Assembly: GCA_026414365.1 (NCBI GenBank)
Contig: JAOAJD010000001.1
Coordinates: 1 to 64,000 of the forward strand
From: Candidatus Iainarchaeum sp.
Lineage (GTDB): Archaea; Iainarchaeota; Iainarchaeia; Iainarchaeales; SKW153
Reading direction: 5' to 3'
Length of the DNA: 64,000 nucleotides
The position numbers and the translations under genes were made by a program. The notes under the pieces are model-generated. The model was not told the DNA's origin. It ran no database searches and saw only the letters and a list, made by a program, of their open reading frames with translations. Below are positions 20,687 through 54,971 of this stretch, one piece after another (position 1 is the first letter of the stretch; every line of letters begins with the position of its first letter).

Positions 20687-20938
20687 AGGAGCAGCAGAGA
20701 GTAAGCCACCTTCTGTTAAGCCAAAGGACTAAAAAAAGTCCTTTCTTATTAAGGCTTGCTGGCATCTTACTACGCGCCTCAAAAGAGGCTTGCACCAAAC
20801 CAAGGCCGTTTCATCCTGCATAACCAGGTATCGTTTCTGTTCCTTGGAACTCCTCTCGGAGTTTTATTTTTAAATGGTGGGCGGACTTTCCTCAGCACTT
20901 CTTTAAGAAGTACCGTCAGCCAGCCTTCTGCTACTCCT
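20687..20938 (-). ncRNA. rnpB: RNase P RNA
   Basis: The minus strand shows the conserved RNase P RNA landmarks: GAGGAAAGTCCGCC near the 5' end, ACAGAAACGATACC and CAGGATGAAACGGCC in the middle, and ACAGAAGGTGGCTTAC near the 3' end. The ends AGGAGTAGCAG and CTGCTGCTCCT pair as an 11-bp P1 helix with one wobble, which sets the limits. The RNA is about 252 nt, short for an archaeal RNase P RNA. It lies just beyond the 23S 3' end on the same strand and could be read through from the rRNA promoter. Confidence 0.92.
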
Positions 20939-24430: not shown

Positions 24431-25926
<1,496 letters not shown>

Positions 25927-50384: not shown

Positions 50385-53114
50385 ATGGGTAAACTAAGAA
50401 ACCAAAAAATCTTGACAGAGAGTGACATAAAATATTGGGCATTGGGAGCAAAAGAAGTAATAAAAATATTGAATAGTTCAGATAAAGGCTTAAGTAACAA
50501 AGAAGCAGCACAAAGATTAGAAAAATATGGGCCTAACGAAATAAAAAAAGAAAAAGAAGTTACTCCTCTGGAAGTTTTTCTGAATCAATTTAAGAATACT
50601 TTTATAATTCTATTAATATTTGCGGGCATCCTTTCTTTAATAATAGGAGAAACTTTAGAAGGGGCTGCAATATTCTTTATAATAATACTCAACGCTACAT
50701 TGGGATTTATCCAAGAATATAAGGCAGAAAAAGCAATAGAGTCACTCAAAAAGATGACTAGTCCAAACGCAATAGTGCTAAGAGATGGAATAGAACAAAA
50801 AATACCTTCAGCTGAAATTGTTCCAGGAGATATTGTAATATTGGAAGCTGGATCAATAGTGCCTGCAGATTGTAGAATAATAGAATCATTTAATTTAGCT
50901 GTTGACGAAGCTTCATTAACTGGTGAATCAGTACCATCTAAAAAAGATGTTAAAGTAGTGAGTGAAAAAACATCTGTTGCTGACAGAAAAAACATGGCAT
51001 ATATGGGTACAATAGTTAGTGTTGGGAAAGGAAAAGCAATAGTTACTTCCACAGGTATGAATACCGAGTTAGGAAAGATAGCAGAATCTTTAAAAGAAAG
51101 TGAGCAAACAGAGACACCGTTGCAAAGAAAATTTACAATGCTTTCAAAACAAATAGCAAAAATAGTACTTTTGTTAGTCTCTTTTGTTTTCTTAGTTTCA
51201 TTTTATAGAAACTTTCCATTATTTGAAATAATTTTGTTTTGTTTAACAATAACTGTATCGACAATACCAAACTCTTTGCCAATAATTGTAACTGTTGGTT
51301 TATCCCTAGGAGCAAAGAGACTTGCAGAAAAGAACATGCTAGTAAAAAAGTTATTTGCTGCAGAAAGTTTGGGCTCTGTTACAGTAATATGCTCAGATAA
51401 AACAGGAACTTTAACTAAGAACCAAATGACTGTAACAAACATATTTTTTAATTATGAGGTTGAGGTTAGTGGTAGTGGTTATGAACCAACTGGAGATTTT
51501 AAAAAAGATGGAGAAAAAATAGAACCTTCAAAGTTAGAGAAATTAATGAAAATAGCTACACTTTGTAACAACGCTTCTCTAGTAGAAGAAAAAGGAGAGT
51601 TTAAAATAATTGGTGACCCGACTGAAGGCTCACTAATAGTAATGGCAAAAAAAGCAGGATATGATAAAGATTATTTTTTGAAAGAAGAAGAACTGTTAGC
51701 AGAATTGCCATTTGACTCTGAAAGAAAAATGATGTCAGTGATATATAAAAACAAACAAACCAAAAAAATAGAAGCTTATGTTAAAGGGGCACCGGACATA
51801 CTAATAAAAAAATGTAACAGAATATTACTAGAAGATGGTAAAATAAGAAGAATAAGAGAAGACGATATTAAACTGATTATAGAAAAAAATAGAAAATATG
51901 CTGAAAGCGCATTAAGAGTATTAGGCTTTGCATACAAAGAAGTTTCAGATAAAACAAAAATGGAAATAGATGAAATTGAGGAAGAATTGATATTTGTTGG
52001 ATTAGCAGGAATGATAGATCCGCCAAGAGAAGAAGTTAAAGAGGCAGTGAAGAAATGTGAAGAAGCAGGAATAAAAGTTATAATCATTACTGGGGATCAT
52101 CCAGCTACTGCCAAAGCTGTTGCAGAAAAAATAAACTTGTTCAAAAAAGGAGATATTGTCCTGAATGGTGCTGAGTTAGATGAAATGAATGAAGAAGAAC
52201 TTTTAAAAAATATAGAAAATATAAGGGTTATAGCAAGAGCCCTGCCAACCCATAAGTTAAAGATTGTAGAAGCATTGCAGAAAAAGGGACATATTGTTGC
52301 CATGACAGGAGACGGAGTTAATGACGCTCCTGCTTTAAAAAGGTCAGACATTGGTGTAGCTATGGGAATTACTGGAACTGATGTGGCTAAAGATGTTTCA
52401 CAAGCAATATTAGTTGATGACAATTTTGCTACTATTGTAAATGCAATTGAAGAAGGCAGAGATATTTATGATAAGATAATAAAATCAGCCAGATATTTGT
52501 TGTCTTGTAATATGGGAGAAATAACTGCAGTAATAATCACAGTAATAACTAATTTACCTTTACCATTAACTCCCATACAAATACTAACCATGAACATACT
52601 AACAGATGATCTCCCAGCACTAGGTTTAGGTACTGAAAAACCAGAAGAAGGAATAATGAAAAGACCACCAAGAAAGCCCCAAGAAAATCCAATAACAAAA
52701 ACCATATTTATCTTAATATTTATTTATGGCCTAATAATGGGAATAGCAACTGTTTGGATATTCCAAAGCTATCTTGGAGAAGGATTAACAAAGGCCAGAA
52801 CTATGGCATTCACAACTCTTGTTATGATACAGATGTTTGCTGTTGTTAGTAGTAGAACATTATATCCTTCAATAAAACATATAAATTTACTAACAAACAA
52901 ATGGTTGTTTTTGGCAATAGTTGCATCAATAATAATACAATTAGGAATAATATACTTCCTTCCATTACAAACAATATACGAAACAACTTCAATAGGGATA
53001 GAAGACTGGATAAAAATAATTGAAATATCTATAACTGGGTTTATTCTCATGGAATTAGGAAAGTTTGTAATCAGAGATATTGACAAAAAAAACAATAATA
53101 TAAAAAATATTTAA
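50385..53114 (+). CDS. P-type cation-transporting ATPase (P2-like)
   Basis: A 909-aa ion pump of the SERCA/PMR-like group. It has the N-terminal cation-ATPase domain, the actuator TGES (179-182), the phosphorylation motif DKTGTLT (Asp338), nucleotide-binding KGAPDILIKKC, and TGDGVNDAPALK. Ten membrane helices are expected. In helix 4 the motif is IPNSLP (294-299), where calcium pumps have PEGLP with an ion-binding Glu; helix 5 keeps NMGE and helix 6 keeps NILTDDLPA. So the transported ion may not be calcium. GGTAAA precedes the ATG. Confidence 0.93.
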   Translation: MGKLRNQKILTESDIKYWALGAKEVIKILNSSDKGLSNKEAAQRLEKYGPNEIKKEKEVTPLEVFLNQFKNTFIILLIFAGILSLIIGETLEGAAIFFIIILNATLGFIQEYKAEKAIESLKKMTSPNAIVLRDGIEQKIPSAEIVPGDIVILEAGSIVPADCRIIESFNLAVDEASLTGESVPSKKDVKVVSEKTSVADRKNMAYMGTIVSVGKGKAIVTSTGMNTELGKIAESLKESEQTETPLQRKFTMLSKQIAKIVLLLVSFVFLVSFYRNFPLFEIILFCLTITVSTIPNSLPIIVTVGLSLGAKRLAEKNMLVKKLFAAESLGSVTVICSDKTGTLTKNQMTVTNIFFNYEVEVSGSGYEPTGDFKKDGEKIEPSKLEKLMKIATLCNNASLVEEKGEFKIIGDPTEGSLIVMAKKAGYDKDYFLKEEELLAELPFDSERKMMSVIYKNKQTKKIEAYVKGAPDILIKKCNRILLEDGKIRRIREDDIKLIIEKNRKYAESALRVLGFAYKEVSDKTKMEIDEIEEELIFVGLAGMIDPPREEVKEAVKKCEEAGIKVIIITGDHPATAKAVAEKINLFKKGDIVLNGAELDEMNEEELLKNIENIRVIARALPTHKLKIVEALQKKGHIVAMTGDGVNDAPALKRSDIGVAMGITGTDVAKDVSQAILVDDNFATIVNAIEEGRDIYDKIIKSARYLLSCNMGEITAVIITVITNLPLPLTPIQILTMNILTDDLPALGLGTEKPEEGIMKRPPRKPQENPITKTIFILIFIYGLIMGIATVWIFQSYLGEGLTKARTMAFTTLVMIQMFAVVSSRTLYPSIKHINLLTNKWLFLAIVASIIIQLGIIYFLPLQTIYETTSIGIEDWIKIIEISITGFILMELGKFVIRDIDKKNNNIKNI

Positions 53115-53137
53115 ACTTAATACATAAGAAATAATAT

Positions 53138-53214
53138 TGTGCGGCCTTGATGAATTGACGATGAATCTGATCTTTAATAAGAAATGAAGATAGATGGGCG
53201 AACTGAGCCGCACA
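53138..53214 (+). ncRNA. C/D box sRNA with two guides against 16S rRNA
   Basis: The RNA is bounded by an exact eight-base inverted repeat (TGTGCGGC / GCCGCACA). Inside are box C TTGATGA (53147-53153), guide 1 (53154-53166), box D' CTGA (53167-53170), box C' ATGAAGA (53184-53190), guide 2 (53191-53202) and box D CTGA (53203-53206). Guides of 13 and 12 bases fit the archaeal architecture. Bases 53156-53164 match antisense 16S at 24905-24913, and 53193-53200 match 24559-24566. By the fifth-nucleotide rule the targets are the equivalents of E. coli 16S 1061 (A here) and C1402. It lies 24 bases after the P-type ATPase gene. Confidence 0.88.
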
Positions 53215-53345
53215 AAACAAAATTTATATTTTGAAACCTATATACAACAAATAGTGAATAAATTATCGACCAAAAAAATTTCTCCAACATTTATTAAAAG
53301 AATTATAAAAAAAGAAAAGAAGAAGACAGAAGTGCTTTAATCACT

Positions 53346-54971
53346 TCAGTCTAAATCAGGAGTCTCTCCTGTATCTTTGCTTGGTCCTTTAGACTTACTA
53401 CTACCTGCAATGATATCATCAATTCTTAGTAACATTTCTGCAACTTCTGAGGCAGATGTTATAGCTTGTGTTTTTACACTCAATGGTTCAATCACTCTTA
53501 ATTTTCGCATATTCTCTATTTTGCCATTAAAAACGTCTACTCCATAATACTTTCCATCCTTCTCTTTGTGCTTACTTCTTAACTTTACAATAGTGTCTAT
53601 CGTATCCATCCCAGCAGTCTCTGCTAAAGTTTTTGGTATTACCTCCAATGCATCTGCAAATGCCTCTATTGCTAATTGTTCTCTACCACCAACATTAGGA
53701 GCATACTCTCTAAGTTTTATAGCCACTTCAACTTCAGAAGCACCTCCACCTACAATAATCTTTCCATTCTTCAGTGCGCTGCAGACAGCTCCTACTGCAT
53801 CATGTACTGCCCTCTCAGCTTCATCAACAACGTGTTCTGATCCACCTCTTAGCAAAATACTTACTGCCTTCGGATTTTTACAATTCTCTATGAAAGTCAT
53901 TGCGTCACCTGCTATCTTTCTCTCTACTACTAAACCTGCATAGCCTAAATCTGACTTACTCAAATCATTTATTCTAGACACTATCTTTGCACCTGTAGCT
54001 CTTGCTAATGCATCCATATCTGATTTCTTAACCCTTCTGACAGCTAATATCCCTTCTTTTGCTAGATAATGCTGAGCTATATCATCAATCCCTTTTTGAC
54101 AAAGTAAAACGTTTGCCCCTGATTCTTTTATTTTAGCCACCATATTTTTTAACATTCTTTCCTCTGAATCTAAGAAAGCTTGTAATTGTTCAGGATCTGT
54201 TATTTGGATCTTCGCTTCAGTCTCAGGGCCTTTTATTTCTAATGCTGCATCTACCAAAGCAATTTTTGCATCTTCTATTTTTTTAGGCATGCCTGAATGT
54301 ACTACTTCTTTATCTATAACAATACCTTTTATTAACTGCGAATCCTTCAAACTGCCACCAACTTTCTTCTCCACCTTTATAAAGTCCATATCAATTATTA
54401 CTTTGTTATCTTTTTCTTCAGCCACTTGTACAACAGCATTAACAACTAGGTCCGCGAGCTCTGATGCTGCCTCAGCACTTTTTCCAGTCATAGAAGTTAA
54501 TGCAATATCTCTCAGTATATCCTTATCTTTTATACTTATTGACTCAGAAATACTCTCATAAACCTCTTTGGCTTTCTGGGCAGCGAGTCTATATCCTTTT
54601 ATTATTATTGATGGATGAATCTCATCATCCAAAAGCTTCTCTGCATTATGTAAAATTTCACCTGCAAATACCACTGCTGTAGTCGTACCATCTCCAACTT
54701 CATCATCTTGAGTCTTTGCAACTTCGACCATCATCTTTCCTGCAGGATGTTCTATACTCATTTCATCTAAGATTGTTGCACCATCGTTACTTATTGTAAT
54801 ATCACCTAAGTCATCAACAATCATCTTATCCATTCCTTTCGGACCGAGAGTACTTCTAACGGCTTGCGCCACTGCTCTTGCAACTAATATATTTATTCTT
54901 TGAGCATCTCTTCCTCTTGTTCTTTTAGTTCCTTCAGCTAAAAAAACAACAGGCTGTTGATTTTCTGCCAT
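53346..54971 (-). CDS. thsA: Thermosome (group II chaperonin) subunit
   Basis: The 541-aa protein forms the archaeal double-ring folding chamber. It has the ATP-binding [16 protein letters not shown] near the N-terminus, [28 protein letters not shown] (catalytic Asp), [17 protein letters not shown] and [17 protein letters not shown], then [12 protein letters not shown] near the C-terminus. The tail ([18 protein letters not shown]) lacks the Gly/Met-rich ending of many thermosomes. A strong AAGGAGGTG site precedes the ATG, so high expression is likely. Only one subunit gene is seen here. Confidence 0.97.

Follow-up and report, generated by a model that had tools for sequence, protein, structure and literature searches.

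The small-subunit rRNA position equivalent to C1402 of Escherichia coli is served by guide RNAs in eukaryotes, namely SNORD43 in human and snR70 in yeast. The Arabidopsis guide U43 directs the methylation of 18S Cm1645, which is the equivalent of E. coli Cm1402, and the equivalent methylated sites are Cm1703 in human and Cm1639 in yeast (PMC11542601). The same review lists the archaeal 16S Cm1369 beside Cm1402 in its Table 2 and cites Gaspin et al. 2000 on the sRNAs of Pyrococcus (PMC11542601). In bacteria, the same C1402 is 2'-O-methylated, but by a protein-only enzyme, RsmI. Archaeal C/D sRNAs of the geometry described below are already established (PMC7994747, PMC4644070). The dual-guide sRNAs of the archaeal sR families, known from Pyrococcus, Sulfolobus and Pyrobaculum, share with the present locus the boxes C, D', C' and D, the terminal k-turn stem, the two guides and the N+5 geometry, as well as the genes for L7Ae, Nop5 and fibrillarin. 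The literature search found no publication joining Diapherotrites with box sRNAs and, supplementary tables aside, no previous report that the equivalent of position 1061 is methylated.

The window, by which we mean the whole 64-kb stretch of DNA analysed here, was confirmed to carry a complete archaeal dual-guide C/D box sRNA gene, located between the genes of a P-type ATPase and a thermosome subunit (Table 1). In a strict scan for the C/D architecture, this was the single match in the window, and 10 shuffled windows gave no match. All four boxes were found where the earlier note had placed them, and the terminal stem that it described is present as well, extending one base further on either side than was noted, to 9 bp. 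Boxes C and D, a 3-nt bulge and the 9-bp stem, which covaries in the homologues, make up the terminal k-turn, while the internal boxes D' (CTGA) and C' (ATGAAGA) are also kept in the homologues. Box C reads TTGATGA, its first base being U and not R as in RUGAUGA. The fold of the sRNA has a z value of -3.1. The covariance-model search proposed in the earlier note gave a negative answer, as no sRNA in the window matched Rfam at the gathering threshold, and the best match, sR2 (RF01139), scored 24.1 bits where its cut-off demands 42, which is below membership.

Table 1. Features of the sRNA locus, its neighbours and its predicted 16S targets (positions in the window; 16S bases in E. coli numbering).
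Feature	Position	Strand	Remark
P-type ATPase gene	50385-53114	+	upstream neighbour of the sRNA; name read from the ORF
Possible TATA-like element, TTTAAA	53110..53115	+	suggested by the sequence; ~25 nt upstream of the sRNA, overlaps the ATPase stop codon
C/D box sRNA gene	53137..53215	+	probable ends of the mature RNA, taken from the stem ends
Terminal stem, 5' arm TTGTGCGGC	53137..53145	+	9-bp pairing with 53207-53215
k-turn bulge CTT and box C, together CTTGATGA	53146..53153	+	box C TGATGA at 53148-53153
Guide 1 (D' guide) ATTGACGATGAAT, 13 nt	53154..53166	+	predicted target 16S A1061
Box D' CTGA	53167..53170	+	architecture scan
D'-C' linker	53171..53183	+	hairpin (stem TCTT/AAGA, loop TAAT), followed by the initial bases of the C' k-turn bulge
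Box C' ATGAAGA	53184..53190	+	architecture scan
Guide 2 (D guide) TAGATGGGCGAA, 12 nt	53191..53202	+	predicted target 16S C1402
Box D CTGA	53203..53206	+	architecture scan
Terminal stem, 3' arm GCCGCACAA	53207..53215	+	pairs with 53137-53145
Thermosome-subunit gene	53346-54971	-	downstream neighbour of the sRNA; name read from the ORF
16S target of guide 1 (h34)	24904..24913	-	predicted methylated base A1061 at 24911
16S target of guide 2 (h44, decoding centre)	24559..24566	-	predicted methylated base C1402 at 24564

The target search bore out the antisense matches of nine and eight bases to 16S that had been claimed for the two guides. Guide 1 forms 9 contiguous Watson-Crick pairs with 16S bases 1059-1067 and a neighbouring wobble pair, which brings its position 5 onto A1061, and guide 2 forms 8 contiguous pairs with bases 1400-1407, its position 5 lying on C1402. 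The fifth-nucleotide rule thus points to the bases named in the earlier note once the numbering is taken from an alignment to rrsH of E. coli MG1655; the 16S copy of E. coli Nissle is one C short at the site and gives shifted numbers, and MG1655 was taken as the reference. Base 1061 is A in the 16S of the window and G in E. coli. With guides of 13 and 12 nt and 9 and 8 pairs, the sRNA has the N+5 arrangement, with duplexes at the short end of the range: the D duplex comprises 8 bp compared with the usual guide of 10-12 nt, its ends vary and its positions 4-10 are nearly invariant.

Both 16S sites were the top-scoring matches of their respective guides in a search of the 16S, 23S, RNase P RNA and four tRNAs of the window, and all of the alternative targets in the 23S, the RNase P RNA and the tRNAs scored below them. 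The RNase P RNA gene (window 20690-20935, reverse strand) follows immediately downstream of the 23S gene and runs in the same direction. Shuffled guides equalled the observed 16S duplex score in 1.1% of trials for guide 1 and in 2.5% for guide 2, and when either 16S or 23S was allowed as the target these values rose to 3.1% and 9.2%. Taken singly, the matches are thus no more than moderately unlikely, and the probability of finding both is about 3e-4 (16S only) to 3e-3. The earlier statement that two matches are unlikely by chance is fair, although it rests on modest numbers, 0.011 and 0.025 in 16S.

The 23S, 16S and RNase P RNAs found in the window are archaeal, and the loci homologous to the sRNA belong to Candidatus Diapherotrites/Iainarchaeota. 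BLAST detected homologues in 13 of 52 relatives from the order. A pattern running from box C' through the D guide to box D, with at most two mismatches allowed, matched 46 of 53 genomes, including all 21 of high quality, while its reversed control gave 6 matches; some of the weakest matches to the pattern, e.g., in G020, G032 and G039, appear spurious when inspected. Of the 75 genomes of the order, 55 contain the exact C'-guide-D pattern (the matches in G032 and G053 look spurious), with one match to the reversed control and none in the 12 genomes of sister orders. When 84,980 species were searched with a pattern containing both guides, 37 records matched; almost all have Diapherotrites or archaeon in their titles, and the records titled Chloroflexota are probably mislabelled bins. 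The sRNA represents a new family, conserved across the order, within a well-known class of guide RNAs. Several Diapherotrites genomes (G012, G027, G030, G065 and G067; loci L122, L125, L104 and L149-L151) hold 2-4 copies of the sRNA, some of them within 1-4 kb of one another, and the copies have the same guides with different stems and linkers.

The terminal stem and a hairpin in the D'-C' linker covary within the family. In the first four positions of the terminal stem of 43 dual-guide sequences, 150 of 172 positions are paired though the bases change, while dealing the 3' arms anew among the sequences gave a mean of 84 and a maximum of 104 pairs. Likewise, the D'-C' linker forms a hairpin with at least two closing pairs in 36 of the 43 sequences (shuffles: mean 4.6, maximum 13), and the loops are GNRA- or UUCG-like in many members, the window copy being TCTT-TAAT-AAGA. 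The usual archaeal C'/D' motif is described as a k-loop (PMC7994747), whereas in most members of the present family, where this hairpin caps it, the motif would be a capped kink-turn.

The comparison of guides with their targets was made on genomes in which both the guide and the 16S site were readable. The 1061 guide is retained in 22 of the 24 genomes with an intact 16S site and in 0 of the 7 with a diverged site (Fisher p = 1.4e-5, a value that ignores phylogeny, the diverged sites falling in three families). In these families, f8, f9 and f20, the site is altered to ACCGCCA, ACTTGCA or ATCGCCA, the D' guide is swapped for a variable, mostly AT-rich sequence and the D guide stays. A compensating 1061 guide was sought in these lineages and not found, their D' guides being unrelated, and those of the unrelated D' guides that were searched against their own 16S loci gave no convincing target. 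The two exceptions, G003 and G038 from family f4, no longer carry the 1061 guide despite an intact target; the D' guide of this family (L050, L051 and L052) is a conserved TTGAACACCTG, for which no target was found in the 16S loci searched. The lineages with a changed 1061 site, where one guide has disappeared along with its target and the other is kept, offer a natural experiment on how guide repertoires follow rRNA change.

For the D guide, every genome of the order with a readable 16S has A1405, and the matching U is invariant in the guide. The sister orders have G1405 and are without the C'-guide-D module, and the C8 version of the D guide (GACGGGC...CTGA) was found in 0 of the 12 genomes of these orders. 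Within the order, 16S bases 1401-1407 are invariant, so a compensatory change at the C1402 site can be seen only between orders, as presence versus absence. Strict covariation of D-guide position 3 with base 1400 was not seen, and some genomes have an A-C mismatch there.

The genes for fibrillarin and Nop5 are adjacent in the genome from which the window comes (G000:C11:112188-113545; genome ~69% complete), and two proteins of the L7Ae family are encoded in the same genome. A search for RsmI (TIGR00096) gave matches over the cut-off in 10 of 14 control genomes and in none of the 53 genomes searched from the order, which leaves the RNA-guided route as the only candidate seen for C1402. The dual-guide reading proposed in the earlier note, together with its two 16S targets, is strongly supported: both guides are conserved, the stem covaries, the 1061 guide has disappeared where the 16S site diverged, genes for fibrillarin, Nop5 and L7Ae are present, and RsmI was not found.

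The locus is thus very probably a dual-guide archaeal C/D sRNA, predicted to direct the 2'-O-methylation of 16S A1061 and C1402. The sRNA would be transcribed from the locus, L7Ae would bind its two kink-turns, and Nop5 and fibrillarin would then assemble on it. With the D' guide, the RNP is expected to methylate the ribose of A1061 in h34, and with the D guide the ribose of C1402 in h44, on the P-site side of the decoding centre, where it would stand in for the bacterial RsmI in this order. The earlier note saw a nice convergence in an RNA-guided route to C1402, which is overstated in that such a route is not new: it is known from Arabidopsis U43, and the archaeal Cm1369 has been listed (PMC11542601). 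The predicted C1402 site corresponds to the position at which Cm1369 is listed. The sRNA shares with U43/SNORD43 a guide to the C1402 equivalent in the same register, which indicates a like function and is not proof of common descent, because the conserved target dictates the guide region and hence its likeness. Unlike U43/SNORD43, it has a second guide, to 16S 1061, and a D guide adapted to A1405. The locus provides a conserved RNA-guided candidate for the C1402 methyl group of the decoding centre in an uncultured DPANN order apparently without RsmI. The C1402 2'-O-methyl group is protein-made in bacteria and RNA-guided in eukaryotes and probably in archaea, and this division becomes testable in a deep archaeal branch.

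It is improbable that only the D guide, directed to C1402, is functional and that the D' match to 1061 is an inherited sequence causing no modification. The D guide does stay in lineages in which the D' guide was replaced or degraded (f4, f9 and f20), but TGACGATGA persists in many families amid stems and linkers that change freely, and it has disappeared in lineages with an altered 16S site. A C/D sRNA acting mainly as a chaperone, which keeps h34 and h44 of the 16S open or together during assembly with methylation being secondary or absent at one site, appears very unlikely. Such a role would suit a single RNA that matches two sites separated by ~340 nt within the 3' half of the 16S and covers one side of a helix at each of them (1059-1067 of h34 and 1400-1407 of h44), yet the box spacing is exact, the N+5 register falls on a base that is 2'-O-methylated in other domains (PMC11542601), a fibrillarin gene is present, and the 1061 guide has been lost alone in several families, so bridging is not needed. 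Chance box-like motifs with short complementarities in AT-rich intergenic DNA, which the chance probability of 1-9% for single-guide matches might suggest, can be dismissed, since conservation and covariation across the families of the order refute this explanation and the strict architecture occurred in no shuffled window.

The predicted guidance of methylation at A1061 and C1402 may also be related to base changes in the 16S itself. In every aligned 16S of the order (window 24432-25926, reverse strand, and 27 relatives), an A-U pair replaces the G-C pair of E. coli at both 1405-1496, in the decoding helix, and 1061-1195, in h34. We tentatively suggest, as a possibility that is more doubtful than probable, that an order-specific sRNA co-evolved with the swaps of G1405-C1496 and G1061-C1195 to A-U, and that an RNP with two full kink-turns, the second arising from the stem that caps the C'/D' motif, would help both regions to fold or would stabilise the weakened pairs by methylation.

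Two of the 16S genes of the relatives are unusually long, spanning 2233 bases in L043 (G030:C47:383-2615) and 1586 bases in L031 (G044:C58:8019-9604) compared with ~1487 bases, which suggests the presence of introns or intervening sequences.
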